Origin: Chloroflexota bacterium
GTDB lineage: Bacteria > Chloroflexota > Dehalococcoidia > UBA2979
NCBI GenBank assembly: GCA_947479915.1
Contig: CANKAU010000003.1
Span: 62,001 to 126,000 of the forward strand
Length of the DNA stretch: 64,000 bases
Direction: 5' to 3'
Below are positions 28,558-36,087 of the stretch, piece after piece; position 1 is the first letter of the stretch; each line of letters opens with the position of its first letter. The position numbers were made by a program, and so were the translations under genes. The notes beneath the pieces were generated by a model that saw only the letters and a program-made list of their open reading frames with translations, did no database searches and had not been told where the DNA came from.

Positions 28558-29505
28558 TTACGCCTCGATGGGGGTCCGCCCCGCCTCGGGCAGCGCGAGC
28601 GCGAGCCGCAGGAACGCCTGCACGCGCGCGTCCGGTGGCGCACCCACCCGACGCACGCCGAGGAGCGTGCGCTCGGCGACCTGGTCGCCTCGGACCGCGC
28701 GGCCCGCGGCGACGTCTTCCTCCGCCACGGCGGCCGGAAGCACGCTCCAGCCCAGCCCCAGCGCGACGACCTGCCGCAGCACTTCCGGGTTCCCCGACTC
28801 GAGCATCACGCGAGGCAGGATGCCGAGGCGACGGAGGCCTTCGTCGATGAGCTGCCGCGTGTGCGAGCCCGCGGGATACAGCGCCCACTCCACGTCCGCC
28901 GCCTCGGTCGCGCCTGCGGTCACGTTCGGCGGCGCGTAGACGTGCAGCGCCTCCGTGCGCACCGACACGGCGTCGAGATCCTCGCCCGCAGGGGCGATGA
29001 CGAAGGCGAGGTCCAGCTCGAAACGGCGGAGGCGATCCATGAGCGCCTCGGATGTGTCGACGAGCAGCCGCAGGTCGACGTCCGGGTGCGCCTCGCGGAA
29101 CGCGCCGATAGTGCCCGGCAGGAGGTACAGGCTCGCCGCGTCGATCATCCCGACTGACAGCGACCCTGCCTCGCCCTGTCGGCGCGACGCCAGCCATGCA
29201 CGCAGCTCCGAGGCGCGCCCCAGCACCTCCGAGGCAAACCGCGCCACCTCGACGCCGGCCTCCGTCAGCACGCGCCGACGCCCGTCACGCTCGAACAGCG
29301 GAACGCCGACGTGGCGCTCGAGGGCGGCGAGGGCCTGGGACAGCGCGGGCTGGCTCACGCCAAGGCGCTCCGCGGCCGCGGTGAACGTGGGGGAGCGCTC
29401 GACCTCACGGAGGTAGGCGAGCTGGTGGGCGTGGAACGGGAAGGGGACGGGCACGACCGCGTCGGGTGGCAGGTTTGGGGAGAATGGGTCCCGATCTGTC
29501 GTCAT
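28558..29505 (-). CDS. LysR-type transcriptional regulator
   Basis: A 315-residue LTTR. The winged helix-turn-helix lies near residues 28-85: LREVERSPTFTAAAERLGVSQ, then PALSQALAALERHVGVPLFERD (both in the standard spacing). A periplasmic-binding-like effector domain follows (about 110-310). The N-terminus has a Pro-rich 25-residue extension. The ATG at 29505 is preferred because TAGACT sits at -10 distance for a near-leaderless start and because the upstream ATG (29538) would place coding sequence over the operator. It is divergent from the inositol-lipid operon, which it may regulate; the effector is unknown. Confidence 0.9.
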   Translation of the reverse strand: MTTDRDPFSPNLPPDAVVPVPFPFHAHQLAYLREVERSPTFTAAAERLGVSQPALSQALAALERHVGVPLFERDGRRRVLTEAGVEVARFASEVLGRASELRAWLASRRQGEAGSLSVGMIDAASLYLLPGTIGAFREAHPDVDLRLLVDTSEALMDRLRRFELDLAFVIAPAGEDLDAVSVRTEALHVYAPPNVTAGATEAADVEWALYPAGSHTRQLIDEGLRRLGILPRVMLESGNPEVLRQVVALGLGWSVLPAAVAEEDVAAGRAVRGDQVAERTLLGVRRVGAPPDARVQAFLRLALALPEAGRTPIEA

Positions 29506-29528: not shown

Positions 29529-29551
29529 TCCAATTCATCCATTGGACGAAT
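29529..29551. promoter_or_regulatory. Overlapping dyads between the LysR gene and the inositol-lipid operon
   Basis: TCCAAT (29529-29534) and ATTGGA (29541-29546) form one inverted repeat; ATTC (29533-29536), 11 bases, GAAT (29548-29551) form a second with the T-N11-A spacing typical of LysR sites. Placed between divergent genes, this is the natural binding site for the adjacent regulator. Confidence 0.5.
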
Positions 29552-29653
29552 CAGTCCTCACCTCGGACGATGGAGTTCACCACCAACCACCACAAGGCTC
29601 CGAGGAGCCGCGCCGCGACCCCAAACCGGGAACGGCGGAGGAGAGGACATCGG

Positions 29654-30724
29654 ATGGCCGGCAAGATCAACGTCGCAATCATCGGCGTGGGGAACTGCGC
29701 CTCGTCGCTCGTTCAGGGCGTCGAGTACTACAAGAACGCCGAAGCGGGCGACGTGATCCCGGGGCTGATGCACCCGGTGCTGGGCGGCTACCACATCCGC
29801 GACATCAACTTCACGGCTGCCTTCGACGTGGACATCGAGAAGGTCGGCAAGGACCTCAACGAGGCCATCTTCAGCGGCCAGAACAACACGATGAAGTTCA
29901 CGGACGTGCCCGCGACCGGCGTCACGGTCTCGCGCGGCATGACGCACGACGGCCTGGGCAAGTACCTGTCGGAGGTCATCACGAAGGCCCCCGGCTCCAC
30001 GGCCGACATCGTGAAGATCCTCAAGGAGACGAAGACCGACGTCGTCATCAACTACCTCCCGGTGGGATCCGAGATGGCGACCAAGTGGTACGTCGAGCAG
30101 ATCCTCGAGGCGGGCTGCGCGATGGTGAACTGCATCCCGGTGTTCATCGCCCGCGAGGAGTACTGGGCCAACCGCTTCAAGGAGAAGAACCTCCCGATCG
30201 TCGGTGACGACATCAAGTCGCAGGTCGGCGCGACGATCCTCCACCGTGTGCTCGTGCGCCTGTTCCAGGATCGCGGCGTGCGCATCGACCGCACCTACCA
30301 GCTGAACTTCGGTGGCAACACCGACTTCATGAACATGCTGGAGCGCGAGCGTCTGGAGTCGAAGAAGATCTCCAAGACCAACGCCGTCACCAGCCAGATC
30401 GCGTACGACCTGCCGGCCGCCGACGTGCACGTCGGCCCGTCCGACTACGTGCCGTGGCTGAAAGACCGCAAGTGGTGCCACATCCGTATCGAGGGCACGA
30501 CCTTCGGCGATGTCCCGCTGATGCTGGAGACCAAGCTCGAGGTGTGGGACTCGCCCAACTCCGCCGGCGTGGTGATCGACGCGATCCGCGCGGCGAAGAT
30601 CGGCCTCGACCGGGGCATCGGGGGGCCGCTCTACGAGACCTCGGCGTACTTCATGAAGTCCCCGCCGAAGCAGATGCTGGACGAGGACGCGCGCGACGGC
30701 CTGGAGGCCTTCATCGCGGGCTAG
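29654..30724 (+). CDS. ino1: Inositol-1-phosphate synthase (prokaryotic type)
   Basis: NAD-dependent cyclisation of glucose 6-phosphate to 1L-myo-inositol 1-phosphate. The 356-residue length matches the actinobacterial/archaeal form. Motifs: [19 protein letters not shown] with the NAD-binding glycines near residue 11, [14 protein letters not shown] near 133, the catalytic-region [26 protein letters not shown] (two segments, near 220-245) and [17 protein letters not shown] near 301. The ATG is preceded by GGAGGAGAGGA. First gene of the operon; its product is the acceptor for the PI-phosphate-synthase-like enzyme at 34613. Confidence 0.95.
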
Positions 30725-30776
30725 CCCACGCGGTACGCTCTCTGCGGAGCCGGTTCAGGTTCCGTGGAAGGCTGCC

Positions 30777-31682
30777 GTGCTTCTCTACTGGACGTTCGTC
30801 ATCGGAACCACCCTCGCCAGGGTGGTTCCGTTGCGTCTGAGCTACGCCATCGCGCGCGCCGTGGGCGTGGCGACCTACTACGCGTGGCCTGGCGGACGGC
30901 GGCGATGCGTCCAGAACCTGCGGCACGTCACCGGCGGCGACACGGTCGAGGCGCGGCGCATCGCGCGGGCCTCCTTCGCGAACTACATCGTGTACCTCGT
31001 CGACTTCTTCCGGCTCATCGGCAGCACGCGCGAGGAATTCGCTGGCCGCGTGGTGTCCGATGAGTGGGACAGCGTGGCGCTCGAGGGCAACGGGCACGGC
31101 ATCGTCGCGATGACGCTGCACTACGGGAACTGGGACCTCGGCGCGGTGCTGATCGCGCAGCATGGGCGCGGCGTCGCAGCGATCGCGGATCGATTCGCCA
31201 GCCCACGCGTCGAGGAATTCGTGCTCGGCTCGCGGCGACACCTCGGCATGACGATCATCCCGGCCGACCACGTCGGCCCCGGCCTGCTCCGCGCGCTGCG
31301 TCGCGACGAGGTCGTCGCCGTGCTCATCGACATCCCGGCTCCGGGCAGCGGCGTGCCGGTCACGTTCTTCGGCGACACAATCGTGGTGTCCGACGGCGCA
31401 GCACGCCTCGCGCTCCGCACCGGCGCGCGCGTCGTCGCGGGCCTCGTGGTGCGTGACCAGCCGTGGGATGAGCGTGTGCGCGCCGAGGCCAGCCCCATCG
31501 ACTTCACCCCCACCGGCGACGAGGCCGGCGACGCGCGTGCGCTGATGCAGGCCGTCTTCACGCACCTGGAGCACCGGGTCCGGCGCGATCCGGCTCAGTG
31601 GTACATCTTCCGCAACCTCTGGCCGTCCGATGTCCGCGGCACCACGCGGCTGCGCACGCCGCACGCGTCGCGGGGCGCCTGA
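30777..31682 (+). CDS. LpxL/PatA-like membrane acyltransferase (first copy)
   Basis: A 301-residue lysophospholipid acyltransferase of the HtrB/LpxL fold, to which mycobacterial PatA (PIM acyltransferase) belongs. The catalytic HX4D motif is HYGNWD (residues 115-120), followed by LGMTIIPADHVGPGLLRALR and VLIDIPAPGSGVPVTFFGD, equivalent to the family's acyl/substrate region. An N-terminal hydrophobic helix anchors it. GTG start with GGAAGG upstream. Being next to ino1 and the PimA-like gene, it is likely to acylate an inositol lipid or mannoside rather than lipid A; no other lipid A gene is in the window. Confidence 0.85.
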   Translation: MLLYWTFVIGTTLARVVPLRLSYAIARAVGVATYYAWPGGRRRCVQNLRHVTGGDTVEARRIARASFANYIVYLVDFFRLIGSTREEFAGRVVSDEWDSVALEGNGHGIVAMTLHYGNWDLGAVLIAQHGRGVAAIADRFASPRVEEFVLGSRRHLGMTIIPADHVGPGLLRALRRDEVVAVLIDIPAPGSGVPVTFFGDTIVVSDGAARLALRTGARVVAGLVVRDQPWDERVRAEASPIDFTPTGDEAGDARALMQAVFTHLEHRVRRDPAQWYIFRNLWPSDVRGTTRLRTPHASRGA

Positions 31683-32584
31683 TGCTGCACTTCGTCGCGC
31701 TCTGGCTCCTCGTGCACATCGGTGGCGCGATCCCGCTCGCGGTGCTCGACCGGATCGCCGGAGCGGCGGGCAATGGCGCGTGGTGGGCCTCGCGGCGGCT
31801 CCGCGAGGTCACGCGCGACCACATGCGCCACGTGCTGGGGCCGGACGCCGCTGCGCACGACATCGACCGAGCAGCGCGCGAGTGCGTCCGATCAGCAGCG
31901 CGCGGCTATGCCGAATTCGCTCACCTGCACGGGCTCTCACCCACCGTCGTGCGTTCACGCATCACCTCGACCGACGGGATCGAGGCGCTCGCCGTCGCGC
32001 ATGCCGAGGGACGCGGCGTGATCATCGTCTCCGCACACCTCGGGGCACCAGAGGTGATCAGTCACGCGGCGCCGACGTTCGAGGTCGAGATGGCCGGGGT
32101 GGCAGAGCCGCTGCGCCCGCAGCGCGTCCACGACTTCGTGCAGGGCATGCGCGCGGTGACGGGCGTGCAGTACTTCAGCGCGACACTGGCAGGGCTGCGC
32201 GAGGCGCGTGCGCACCTCGGTCGAGGCGGTGCGCTGGGCCTGCTCGTCGACCGTGACGTGCTGCACACGGGACGTCCGTACGCCTTCTTCGGAGAGCGCG
32301 CGCTCATGCCGACCGGTGCTGTGGAGTTGGCACGCCGCACCGGCGCGCCGATCGTCGCCGTGTGGTGCTACCGGGCGGTCGAGGCGGGACGGTACCGCCT
32401 GGTGGCGCGGCCCGTGCCACTGCCGGAAGCGACGGGAGCGCGCGATACCGACGTGGATTCGGGTATGCGTGCGGTGCTCGCAGCACTGGAAGCGGCGATC
32501 CGCGAGGAGCCGGGGCAGTGGTTTCCGCTGGCGCCGGTCTGGTCCGGCCTCGGCACCGCACGTGCGAATTGCAATATTGCTTAA
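31682..32584 (+). CDS. LpxL/PatA-like membrane acyltransferase (second copy)
   Basis: A 300-residue paralogue of the preceding protein, starting within its stop codon (TGATG). The motif is HLGAPE (residues 119-124), HX4E in place of HX4D; family members tolerate either acid. Further matches: GGALGLLVDRDVLHTGRPYAFF (in two parts) and FFGERALMPTGAVELARRTGAP. An N-terminal membrane segment (residues 3-24) is present. Two tandem acyltransferases suggest two different acylation positions on the same lipid, or a catalytic and an accessory subunit; this is inference. Confidence 0.82.
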   Translation: MLHFVALWLLVHIGGAIPLAVLDRIAGAAGNGAWWASRRLREVTRDHMRHVLGPDAAAHDIDRAARECVRSAARGYAEFAHLHGLSPTVVRSRITSTDGIEALAVAHAEGRGVIIVSAHLGAPEVISHAAPTFEVEMAGVAEPLRPQRVHDFVQGMRAVTGVQYFSATLAGLREARAHLGRGGALGLLVDRDVLHTGRPYAFFGERALMPTGAVELARRTGAPIVAVWCYRAVEAGRYRLVARPVPLPEATGARDTDVDSGMRAVLAALEAAIREEPGQWFPLAPVWSGLGTARANCNIA

Positions 32585-32607
32585 CCCGTCAAGTCTGTCT
32601 GCGCGCC

Positions 32608-32613
32608 TACAAT
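32608..32613 (+). promoter_or_regulatory. Internal -10 box for a leaderless PHP-gene transcript
   Basis: TACAAT ends six bases before the ATG at 32620, with no Shine-Dalgarno, inside the operon after a 35-base gap. This would give the PHP, PimA-like and PI-phosphate-synthase-like genes a second promoter. Confidence 0.5.
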
Positions 32614-32619
32614 GAACGC

Positions 32620-33435
32620 ATGACTGGTCAGCCGCTGCACATGGATCGCGAGGAACCGAGCGCACCTCGACGATTCGGTCGCGCCGATCTGCAAGTGCAC
32701 ACCTCCCACGGCGACGGCATGGAGGACGCGCGCACCATCTTCGAGCGCATCGAGCTGCGCGGCGAGCTGGACGTCATCGCCATTACGGACCACGACGACG
32801 TGCGCGGCGCCCTGGAGGCGCGCGAGGTCTACAGCCACTCCCGCTACCACTTCGACCTGATCACCGGTATTGAGGTCACGACCCGGCAGGGCCATCTGCT
32901 CGCGCTCTTCGTGGACCAGCCGATCCCCTCGTTCCGTTCGCTGGAGGCCACCGTGGCCGCCGTGCACCGGGCAGGCGGCCTCGCGGTCGTCCCTCACCCG
33001 TTCTCGGCGCTCACGCGCTCCGTCGGCCGCCGTGCCCTGGAGCGTGTGCTGGCGATCGAGGACGAGAGCACCCACCCGGACGGTATCGAGCTGGCAAACC
33101 CGACGAGCATGGGCTGGGACACCGGCGCTCGGGCGCGCCGCCTGAACGCGACGCGCTACCACCTCGCCGAGACCGGCGGCAGCGACGCGCATTTCGTCGA
33201 GGCGCTCGGGAACGCGTACACGCTGTTCCCCGGTCGCGACTCGCTCGCGCTGCGCACCGCGATCCTCGAGCGCCGCACGACCGGCGTCATCGACCAGGGG
33301 ACGCCACTCCGCGACATCGGCGCGCGCCGCTTGCTGGCCCAGCAGGTGCGCGGGCTCGCCGTCACCCCGCGGAAGGTGCTGGGGCCGATGGCCGCGCGCC
33401 TGCGCGACCGCATCACCCGGGCGGGGCTCGCGTGA
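32620..33435 (+). CDS. PHP-domain metal-dependent phosphoesterase
   Basis: A 271-residue PHP protein of the TrpH/YciV type. Metal motifs: ADLQVHTSHGDG near residue 22, ITDHDD at 55-60, GIEVTTRQGHLLALF near 82, VVPHPFS near 125 and GSDAHF near 187. The first motif is normally HxH and here is QxH (Gln25, His27), one ligand short. Known relatives hydrolyse phosphoesters of nucleotides. Its position between the acyltransferases and the lipid synthase suggests it could dephosphorylate phosphatidylinositol phosphate; not demonstrated. Stop overlaps the next start (GTGA). Confidence 0.85.
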   Translation: MTGQPLHMDREEPSAPRRFGRADLQVHTSHGDGMEDARTIFERIELRGELDVIAITDHDDVRGALEAREVYSHSRYHFDLITGIEVTTRQGHLLALFVDQPIPSFRSLEATVAAVHRAGGLAVVPHPFSALTRSVGRRALERVLAIEDESTHPDGIELANPTSMGWDTGARARRLNATRYHLAETGGSDAHFVEALGNAYTLFPGRDSLALRTAILERRTTGVIDQGTPLRDIGARRLLAQQVRGLAVTPRKVLGPMAARLRDRITRAGLA

Positions 33436-34616
33436 AGATCGCCCTCGTGTCGCCGTACGACTGGGACGTCCCGGGCGGCGTGAACACGCACGTGGCCGCG
33501 CTCTCCACACACCTGCGCGGCCACGGGCACGAGGTGAAGATCCTGGCTCCCGCCGCCCGCGACGTGGACGACCCGCATGTCATCACCCTCGGCCGGCCGT
33601 GGCCCGTCGCCGCCTCGGGTTCGGTCGTACGCATCGCCCTCGACCCGATGGTCGGGCGGCGCGTGAAGCAGGTGCTGCAACGCGAGCAGTTCGACGTGGT
33701 GCACATCCACGAGCCGCTGATGCCGGTGCTGCCCATCCATGTGCTGCGCCACTCGCGCACCGCGAACCCGCGTGTCGTGAACGTGGGCACGTTCCATGCG
33801 AGGAAGGACGGCGGCAACCGTCTCTACGCCTACGGTCGCCGGCTCCTAAAGCGCTGGTTCCGCGAGCTCGACGGGAAGATCGCCGTCTCACCGCCGGCCA
33901 GCCAGTACGTCTCGCGATACTTCCCCGGCTACTACAACACCGTCCCGAACGGCATCGACGTCGCTCACTGGTCGAGGCAGGACATCACGCCGATGCCCGG
34001 CTACGAGGGCACACAGAACATCCTGTACACGGGCCGCGCAGAGAAGCGGAAGGGCCTTGCGGTGCTCATCCGCGCTTTCGGCATGGTGAATGCCCGCAAC
34101 CCCGAGGCACGCCTGATCGTCGTCGGCCCTGACTCGCGCGCGCGCCGCCGCTATGAGTCGTGGGTGGAGACCAGCGGCCGTCGGGGCATCACGTTCGTCC
34201 CGGAGCAGGCCTACAGCGACCTCGTGCGGTTCCACCGCGCCAGCCAGATCTTCTGCTCGCCGGCCCTGGGCCACGAGTCGCAGGGGTACGTGCTGCTGGA
34301 GGCGATGGCGGCCGGCATCCCCGTAGTCGCCAGCGACATCGAGGGATACGCCTCGGTCATCACCCACGGCGTGGACGGACTGCTCGTTCGTCCGAACGAC
34401 GCCATGGCGCTGGCCGACGCCCTGACGGCGCTCCTGCAGGACCCGAAGCGCCGCGCCACGCTCGCCGCGGCCGGCCGTCGGACGGTCGAGGACTACTCGT
34501 GGCCCCGGGTCACAGAGCGCGTACTCTCCTACTACGAACGCCTCCGCGAGCAGCAGGAGACGGTGGAGGCCTCGCGGCGATTGGCGCTTCGGCATACGCT
34601 GACGGCAACACGATGA
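33432..34616 (+). CDS. GT4 glycosyltransferase, PimA-like
   Basis: A 394-residue GT-B glycosyltransferase. The N-terminus KIALVSPYDWDVPGGVNTHV closely resembles mycobacterial PimA, the GDP-mannose:phosphatidylinositol mannosyltransferase. Donor-site features: YTGRAEKRKGLAVLIRAF near residue 198, FCSPALGHESQGYVLLEAM (the E-x7-E region) near 275, and GIPVVASDIEGYASVI. The GTG start overlaps the PHP stop and its TGA overlaps the PI-phosphate-synthase-like ATG. With ino1 and that enzyme in the same operon, transfer of a hexose to an inositol lipid is the best reading; the sugar is not determined. Confidence 0.85.
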   Translation: MKIALVSPYDWDVPGGVNTHVAALSTHLRGHGHEVKILAPAARDVDDPHVITLGRPWPVAASGSVVRIALDPMVGRRVKQVLQREQFDVVHIHEPLMPVLPIHVLRHSRTANPRVVNVGTFHARKDGGNRLYAYGRRLLKRWFRELDGKIAVSPPASQYVSRYFPGYYNTVPNGIDVAHWSRQDITPMPGYEGTQNILYTGRAEKRKGLAVLIRAFGMVNARNPEARLIVVGPDSRARRRYESWVETSGRRGITFVPEQAYSDLVRFHRASQIFCSPALGHESQGYVLLEAMAAGIPVVASDIEGYASVITHGVDGLLVRPNDAMALADALTALLQDPKRRATLAAAGRRTVEDYSWPRVTERVLSYYERLREQQETVEASRRLALRHTLTATR

Positions 34617-35260
34617 ACGTACGACTGCTTCCCGCTCGTCCCCCTGCCGCCGCGATCGACCCGATCGTGCGCGTCCTCGCGTCCCTGGGCATCGGCCCGG
34701 CGGCGCTGACGACTGCGGGGCTCATCGGCAACGTCTTCGCCGCCGCGCTGATCGTGGACGGCTCGCTGCTCGCCGGCGGCTTCGTGCTGCTCCTCGCGAG
34801 CGCGCTCGACATGCTCGACGGCGCGCTGGCACGCGCCACCGGCAGCGCCTCACGCTTCGGCGCAATGTTCGACTCCGTCCTCGATCGCTTCTCGGAGGCG
34901 GTCGTGCTGTTTGGCATCGCCTGGTACGCCATCGAGTCCGGCAACCGCGAACAGGCGCTGCTCGCGTTCGCCGCCGTCGTCGGTTCGCTGATGGTGTCCT
35001 ACGTCCGCGCGCGCGCCGAGGGATTGAACCTGCAACTCCGCGACGGCATCTTCACCCGCGCCGAGCGAGTGGTTCTGACCGGCGCGATGCTCATCCTCGG
35101 CTACGTCACGATCGGCCTGTGGATCCTCGCGACGCTATCGCTGTTCACCGCGTTCCAGCGGCTGTGGATCGCGAGCCGCATGCTGCTCGCCGCCGACGCA
35201 CCGCCGCGGCCGATGCGCGTGAGCGCGCCGAAGACCGCCAAGCCCGAGCCGCGCCGGTGA
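34613..35260 (+). CDS. CDP-alcohol phosphatidyltransferase, PI-phosphate synthase-like
   Basis: A 215-residue integral membrane enzyme with about six helices. It has the complete CDP-alcohol transferase signature D-x2-D-G-x2-A-R-x8-G-x3-D-x3-D at residues 66-91 (DMLDGALAR...G...D...D), so it is catalytically intact. Operon context with ino1 suggests it joins CDP-diacylglycerol (from CdsA at 9029) to inositol 1-phosphate, giving phosphatidylinositol phosphate as in mycobacterial PgsA1; phosphatidylglycerophosphate synthesis is the alternative. ATG overlaps the upstream stop. Confidence 0.85.
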   Translation: MNVRLLPARPPAAAIDPIVRVLASLGIGPAALTTAGLIGNVFAAALIVDGSLLAGGFVLLLASALDMLDGALARATGSASRFGAMFDSVLDRFSEAVVLFGIAWYAIESGNREQALLAFAAVVGSLMVSYVRARAEGLNLQLRDGIFTRAERVVLTGAMLILGYVTIGLWILATLSLFTAFQRLWIASRMLLAADAPPRPMRVSAPKTAKPEPRR

Positions 35261-36087
35261 CGTCCATGTCCGGCCCCCTCCCTCGCGAAGCCGAGGTCGA
35301 GGTGATGCAGTTCTTCGCGGAGCGCCTCGCGCGGCCCGTGAGCATCGATGTCTGGACGCGCCGCGGCACCGGCCTCGTGCTCCCCGACCGCGACACCTCC
35401 GCGCACGACGACGAGCAACTGGCACTGATGCGCCAGTTCGTGCGCCTGACGCCCGCGCTCACCGTCACCCCGTACGACATCGAGAAGCACGGCGACCGCG
35501 CCGCCGAGGCGCGCATCGACCTGACGCCGACCACGGTGATGCGGTGTGCGGGACGATCGGTGCAGTACGTGGGCATGGCGGGGGGGATGCTGTTCCCCGC
35601 GTTCCTCGACGTCATGTCCTACCTGTCGGTTGGCACGACGCCGCTGGACGACAGCTCCCGCGAGGTCCTCGCGACGCTGCGCGACCCGGTGCAGCTCGAG
35701 CTTCTGGTGGCGCCGTACGACAACTACTCCGGGCACCTGATGCGCCTCGCGTCCGCGCTCGCCGTGGAGTGCCGCGCGATCCGGCTACGCATCGTCGATG
35801 CGACCGAGTACCCGATCTTCGCCTCGCTGCGCGGGGTGAGCGGCGTGCCGGTGCTGTCGATCGACGGGCAGCGGTTCGTGGGCGTGTGGGATGAGACCGA
35901 GCTGGTCGAGCAGATCCGCCGGATCGCCACCGGCAACACCGAGGCAGTGATCCGCAGCGCGGTCTACGCCGTCCCGTTCATCACCGAGGCCGACGCCCGC
36001 GCGATGGAAGCGGAGAGTGCCGCCGAGGTCGCAGGCGCCATGGCGCCGTCGCCCTCGGGCGGCCTGTACATCCCCGGGCGCGACTAG
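35257..36087 (+). CDS. Tandem thioredoxin-fold (PDO/glutaredoxin-like) protein without redox cysteines
   Basis: About 276 residues in two thioredoxin-like halves, as in archaeal protein disulfide oxidoreductase. The second half has LLVAPYDNYSGHLMRLASALA near residue 148, where functional members have CPYC, and SGVPVLSIDGQRFVG near 193 with the cis-proline loop. Neither CxxC is present; cysteines occur only in RCAGR and VECRA, away from the active-site positions. Redox activity is therefore unlikely; a binding or scaffold role is possible. GTG start overlaps the preceding stop (GTGA); ATG at 35266 is an alternative. Last gene of the inositol-lipid operon. Confidence 0.7.
   Translation: MTSMSGPLPREAEVEVMQFFAERLARPVSIDVWTRRGTGLVLPDRDTSAHDDEQLALMRQFVRLTPALTVTPYDIEKHGDRAAEARIDLTPTTVMRCAGRSVQYVGMAGGMLFPAFLDVMSYLSVGTTPLDDSSREVLATLRDPVQLELLVAPYDNYSGHLMRLASALAVECRAIRLRIVDATEYPIFASLRGVSGVPVLSIDGQRFVGVWDETELVEQIRRIATGNTEAVIRSAVYAVPFITEADARAMEAESAAEVAGAMAPSPSGGLYIPGRD

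Follow-up and report, generated by a model that had tools for sequence, protein, structure and literature searches.

A conserved operon of Dehalococcoidia predicted to make a glycosylated and acylated inositol phospholipid

Which lipid, if any, is made by the ino1 operon found in this DNA of a Chloroflexota bacterium? The window, by which we mean the whole stretch of 64,000 nucleotides that was analysed, holds seven co-directional genes from position 29654 to 36087, all intact, with a LysR family gene divergent from them on the minus strand. They encode an inositol phosphate synthase (Ino1), two acyltransferases (AT1 and AT2), a PHP family phosphoesterase, a GT4 glycosyltransferase, a CDP-alcohol transferase of the phosphatidylinositol phosphate (PIP) synthase type (PIPS) and a thioredoxin-fold protein. 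It is highly probable that this operon makes a glycosylated and acylated inositol phospholipid by the logic of the mycobacterial phosphatidylinositol mannosides (PIM). Bacterial inositol phospholipids have been described as comparatively rare, and as earlier believed to occur mainly in spirochaetes and Actinobacteria (PMC9246714). What is new about the locus is that PIM logic is combined with a second acyltransferase and a PHP candidate, and that the set is conserved in a class whose genomes are mostly devoid of recognised genes for phosphatidylglycerol (PG).

The three NCBIfam families that score best with the CDP-alcohol transferase, NF052561 (147.0 bits), NF040950 (137.8 bits) and NF045883 (134.4 bits), are all of the PIP synthase type; as these scores are under the equivalog cut-offs (350, 180 and 170 bits, respectively), the protein is named here PIP-synthase-type and not a member of the equivalogs. 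The pgsA model (TIGR00560) gives 30.7 bits, with a cut-off of 109. The best solved relatives are PgsA1 of Mycobacterium tuberculosis (5.6e-24) and other PIP synthases. The signature D-x2-DG-x2-AR-x8-G-x3-D-x3-D is complete (D66, D69, G70, A73, R74, G83, D87, D91) and invariant in 28 homologues, as are R92, S129, Y130, R149, R152 and R183, which align with R94, S132, Y133, R152, R155 and R195 of M. tuberculosis PgsA1. Most of the latter line the inositol phosphate site of that enzyme (PMC6506517, PMC4634129). The pocket set R92, S129, R134, R149, R152 and R183 (R94, S132, R137, R152, R155 and R195 in M. tuberculosis) is invariant or nearly so in the same alignment, while K135 and P153 of PgsA1 are replaced by R and A in the window. 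Scores, solved matches and pocket together support the phosphatidylinositol (PI) pathway claimed by the first-pass annotation.

Ino1 matches PF01658 with 130.5 bits (cut-off 27) and TIGR03450 with 547 bits, the latter under the cut-off of 638, and M. tuberculosis Ino1 (1gr0) aligns with it over the whole length (E = 1.8e-149). For the GT4 the best PDB match is PimA (1e-57), 123 bits ahead of PimB' (2e-20), and M. smegmatis PimA searched in the own genome of the window finds the GT4 with 196.8 bits and a runner-up with 66.6 bits. Identity with PimA is about 35%. Among the residues which we take to be the donor and acceptor contacts of PimA, Y9, G16, S65, R68, H118, R196, K202 and E274 are present in 39 to 43 of 43 sequences. 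This conservation does not extend to N63 and R70, and the other GT4 of the genome, which is MshA-like, has no Y9, S65 or R68. A PimA-like glycosyl step had been predicted, with a placement of the GT4 in unrelated families named as the result that would speak against it; the match is best in both directions, the key residues are there and no such placement is seen.

Both acyltransferases have NF005919, a PIM acyltransferase family, as best NCBIfam match (141.1 bits for AT1, 114.4 for AT2, cut-off of 209 not reached) and PatA as best solved match (5f2t, E = 2.7e-16 for AT1; 9.5e-8 for AT2). The HX4D motif of AT1 reads HYGNWD and the HX4E motif of AT2 HLGAPE. H126, E200 and R164 of PatA are catalytic or substrate residues, and H284 touches inositol in a docking model (PMC4792965). 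H126 and R164 are invariant in AT1 and AT2, D131 is retained in AT1, and E200 is D in both (28/28 in AT1); the position of H284 is mostly occupied by Y in AT1 proteins and by F in AT2 proteins. Acylation of the PatA type, as first annotated, agrees with these data, and because of the changes at E200 and H284 the specificity may differ from that of PatA. In one tree, whose support values were not read, AT1 and AT2 form two separate clades, each spanning several families of the class. The further claim of two acylation steps foreign to the textbook pathway does not hold, since mycobacteria acylate both mannose and inositol: their PIMs carry two acyl chains beyond those of PI, PatA acting on the mannose and the inositol enzyme being unidentified as of 2022 (PMC9490103). 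AT2 offers a candidate for such a second PIM-type acyltransferase.

The arrangement of the operon is far beyond chance, because many other genomes have these genes in the same series. Overlaps are found at four of its six joints, of one base between AT1 and AT2 and of four bases at PHP/GT4, GT4/PIPS and PIPS/thioredoxin-fold gene, and the two others are gaps of 52 bases (ino1/AT1) and 35 bases (AT2/PHP). Gene set, order, direction and short overlaps are as annotated. The Chloroflexota origin is likewise borne out, the window being Dehalococcoidia-like and the named sources of the nearest transferase relatives being metagenome-assembled genomes (MAGs) labelled Dehalococcoidia or Chloroflexi. 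The comparison covered 59 loci from relatives, several of them ended by contig borders, and 60 genomes. The series ino1-AT1-AT2-PHP-GT4-PIPS is complete in 22 of the loci; reduced cores consist of ino1-GT4-PIPS alone (8/59) or ino1-PIPS alone (3/59, genus g8), and L064 shows a rearrangement of the genes around PIPS. The ino1-GT4-PIPS core is also present in a MAG labelled Dehalococcoidaceae (L139). At three loci (L164, L167 and L190) ino1 and PIPS lie about 1 kb apart and no GT4 match is found; another enzyme may have taken over the sugar transfer there.

The own genome, 93.6% complete, has two CDP-alcohol transferases, PIPS and PssA. In the 60 relatives two matches score above the pgsA cut-off and a third narrowly misses it, which gives a true PgsA in 3/60. 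As a strict cut-off it is reached by 6 of 14 controls, and the motifs of the other PF01066 matches were therefore also examined; the extra copies are PssA-like, belong to a GDLAR-type subfamily or are unclassified (L206, L207, L211). PgpA (PF04608) is absent from the own genome and from 59/60 relatives, the single carrier G048 being among the three that have PgsA and the only one with recognised PgsA in the set of 29 genomes with a completeness of 90% or more and a contamination of 5% or less. Draft genomes may miss genes, and it is unlikely that an absence so consistent through the class is due to assembly. As most of the class has no PG synthesis genes, inositol lipids would replace PG there and are probably the main anionic phospholipid family. 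In Dictyobacter, a genus of Chloroflexota, PI has been reported as a major lipid (PMC12453558). CDP-alcohol transferases of a second subfamily, which bear the signature VDGVDGDLAR, are encoded at L085, L086, L087 and L088.

Bacterial PI synthesis passes through PIP and requires a phosphatase. The PHP gene is the only phosphatase-like gene of the operon and lies inside it in nearly all loci bearing AT1. The protein matches PF13263 above cut-off and PF02811 with 20.9 bits, under the cut-off of 26.4; AlphaFold and Foldseek give a PHP fold (7ug9, E = 2.3e-11), and the metal-ligand-type residues H27, H58, E85, H126 and H191 are invariant in 21 homologues. The best sequence and fold matches are PHP proteins of the CehA/McbA and RNase AM types, with which it shares the fold and the metal-binding motifs. 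It differs from the CehA/McbA type in its score (65 bits, cut-off 80), and from both in the first motif, which is DLQ and not DLH in the family of the window, in the lipid synthesis context and in an extra basic C-terminal helix. This tail, modelled as a helix at residues 235-269 with moderate confidence, has a charge of +8 on a body of -8, and in the aligned orthologues it is positive in 21/21 (+5 to +10), mostly on a negative body. We read it as a putative membrane anchor.

Whether this PHP protein is the PIP phosphatase is an evenly balanced question. The assignment would fit its place in the operon, the conserved basic tail and the rarity of PgpA, and PgpA as PIP phosphatase, which is the solution of Bacteroides (BT_1525, PMC9246714), was rejected for the class on account of that rarity. 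Just as credible is an arrangement in which PI and glycosylated PI are made, with an unlinked phosphatase producing PI, but the PHP protein hydrolyses a different phosphoester, perhaps one of lipid turnover: the nearest characterised PHP enzymes have nucleotide or RNA substrates, and in about a dozen relatives that carry ino1-GT4-PIPS or ino1-PIPS no PHP orthologue scores above 130 bits. In these relatives another phosphatase would therefore be needed, and the PHP protein as a universal PIP phosphatase was rejected, being missing from many genomes with PIPS. Short PHP proteins of 221-230 amino acids, with no strongly basic tail, are encoded at L071 (2123-2815), L078 (5342-6007) and L080 (5157-5837), near ino1-GT4-PIPS on the opposite strand; the three genomes are without the operon-type PHP.

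Two other explanations concern the pathway as a whole. The transferase could be the PG-phosphate synthase of the organism, in an operon for ordinary PG and glycolipid synthesis, since nearly all bacteria have a PG synthase and no further class I CDP-alcohol transferase was found in the genome. We regard this as extremely improbable: a grouping with PG-phosphate synthases, set beforehand as the refutation of the PI pathway, is not seen, the reading being rejected by the scores (31 versus 134-147 bits) and by the invariant inositol phosphate pocket, and moreover ino1 shares the cluster with the transferase in most complete loci and PgpA is missing as well. Alternatively, Ino1 could mainly serve the synthesis of a mycothiol-like thiol, or of a soluble solute based on inositol, with the lipid genes as a side branch. 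The own genome does encode the MshA-like GT4 (TIGR03449, 374 bits, cut-off 462) adjoining a PIG-L deacetylase, and at another place it has a short paralogue of the cysteinyl-tRNA synthetase CysS. But these thiol-type genes lie apart from the operon, and ino1 and PIPS remain together even in genus g8, where GT4, acyltransferases and PHP are gone from the locus, which makes this explanation very improbable, if slightly less so than the former. The thiol-type genes, at L214 (665-2700, G000:C28) and L217 (G000:C27:6661-7800), may belong to a mycothiol-like pathway outside Actinobacteria; no MshD was found above cut-off.

Against the inositol lipid reading stand several points, beyond the relatives with no PHP orthologue. 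Ino1, PIPS and the AT proteins are all under the curated NCBIfam equivalog cut-offs, and Ino1 may feed the mycothiol-like route as well. As to the sugar donor, a ManC-type GDP-mannose pyrophosphorylase domain was not found in the own genome, and the nucleotidyltransferase which is present is GMPPB-like, with nearly equal matches to GDP-mannose pyrophosphorylase (7.4e-46) and to a UTP-glucose enzyme (1.1e-45). A supply of GDP-mannose from this protein is suggested, and mannose as the sugar transferred by the GT4 is plausible. Inositol lipid data for Dehalococcoidia were not found in the open literature, and for inositol or diol lipids of Thermomicrobia likewise nothing usable was found. From Thermomicrobia, diol-phosphoinositol and acyl-mannosyl-inositol lipids were reportedly described in 2015, and no claim made here draws on them.

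The glycosylated, acylated inositol phospholipid would be made in the following order, which like the substrates, the sugar, the role of the PHP protein and the regulation is predicted from the enzyme families, the conservation of active sites and operon and the rarity of PgsA and PgpA. Ino1 would convert glucose 6-phosphate to inositol phosphate, which the CDP-alcohol transferase would join to CDP-diacylglycerol to give PIP. The PHP protein, at the membrane through its basic helix, would most likely turn PIP into PI; the PimA-type GT4 would then add one hexose, probably mannose, AT1 would acylate the sugar and AT2 would add a second acyl chain.

The closest known system is the mycobacterial PI/PIM pathway (Ino1, PgsA1, PimA, PatA), which shares the enzyme families, the sequence of PIP, PimA-type sugar and PatA-type acylation, and the clustering of genes. 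It differs in that here ino1 is inside the operon, two acyltransferases, a PHP phosphoesterase and a LysR regulator are present, no PimB' was identified, and all window proteins are divergent. In Bacteroides thetaiotaomicron (BT_1522-BT_1526, PMC9246714) ino1, a PIP synthase and a dedicated phosphatase are also clustered, and the model of the PIP synthase BT_1523, NF052561, is the top NCBIfam match of the transferase; there, however, the phosphatase is of the PgpA family and inositol sphingolipids are made, whereas here PgpA is absent, the PHP protein may fill its slot, and a PimA-type GT4 and PatA-type acyltransferases are added. Dictyobacter (PMC12453558), of the same phylum and compared by its lipids, has PI as major polar lipid but also PG and cardiolipin, while the relatives of the window are mostly without PgsA.

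The breadth of conservation of the operon, the rarity of PgsA and PgpA in the class and the PIP phosphatase gap which the PHP protein could fill are additions to the first-pass annotation. The conserved operon and this rarity predict a membrane chemistry for a class which is abundant, has few cultured members and counts organohalide respirers among them. The operon also offers a candidate PIP phosphatase outside Bacteroides, the mycobacterial enzyme having been described as unidentified in 2019 (PMC6506517), and this candidate and AT2 are both suited to ordinary heterologous assays. Taken jointly, that most Dehalococcoidia are without PG and have inositol phospholipids as their main anionic lipids derived from CDP-diacylglycerol, that the PHP protein is a new class of PIP phosphatase and that AT2 is the equivalent of the mycobacterial second acylation is a tentative proposal, which we hold to be rather doubtful as a whole.

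That LysR controls the operon is plausible; the regulator would probably act on ino1 and the genes behind it. The divergent LysR-ino1 pair occurs in 19 loci of the family of the window, genus g8 included, and in no locus outside this family among those compared; LysR as a member of the ancestral operon was thus rejected. The dyad which had been noticed between LysR and ino1 is present as sequence. It overlaps the longest open reading frame (ORF) of LysR, which reaches 29538, therefore a start at the conserved ATG at 29505 is more likely and leaves a gap of 148 bp. A perfect dyad of such size arises in about 20% of shuffles of this gap, and significance from the letters alone was rejected; what supports the dyad is that the block is retained in two other species of the same genus (L033, L034).

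Table 1. Features of the ino1 locus, with positions in the window and the matches on which each name is based.
Feature	Position	Strand	Basis
LysR-family regulator	28558..29505	-	PF00126 (73.3 bits) and PF03466 (126.9 bits); longest ORF reaches 29538
Candidate LysR operator (dyad)	29529..29551	no strand	TCCAAT-N6-ATTGGA at 29529-29546; overlapping ATTC-N11-GAAT at 29533-29551
ino1, inositol-3-phosphate (L-myo-inositol-1-phosphate) synthase	29654..30724	+	PF01658, TIGR03450, M. tuberculosis Ino1 1gr0
AT1, PatA/LpxL-type acyltransferase, HX4D; probable sugar acylation	30777..31682	+	PF03279, NF005919, PatA 5f2t
AT2, second PatA/LpxL-type acyltransferase, HX4E; possible second acylation	31682..32584	+	PF03279, NF005919, PatA
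PHP-family phosphoesterase, basic C-terminal helix; candidate PIP phosphatase	32620..33435	+	PF13263, AlphaFold/Foldseek fold
PimA-type GT4, predicted PI glycosyl(mannosyl)transferase	33432..34616	+	PimA as best PDB match
CDP-alcohol phosphotransferase, PIP-synthase type (PIPS)	34613..35260	+	NF052561/NF040950/NF045883, M. tuberculosis PgsA1 structure
Thioredoxin-fold, protein-disulfide-oxidoreductase-like protein without CxxC; pathway role uncertain	35257..36087	+	TIGR02187, 2hls

Beyond the operon follow, on the opposite strand, genes for a Peptidase_MA_2 protein and prfB. The last gene of the operon encodes the thioredoxin-fold protein, with 93 bits for TIGR02187 (cut-off 185) and a match to 2hls (1e-11). 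Its CxxC motif, retained in most relatives, is lost in the window and in several others, and a role as active redox partner was rejected for the own genome for this reason. The gene adjoins PIPS throughout the family of the window. In genus g5 (L089 and L090, from G009 and G023, with genomes of about 1.1-1.2 Mb) a divergent PIPS-like gene lies beside the thioredoxin-fold gene, at a locus without ino1, GT4, acyltransferases and PHP.

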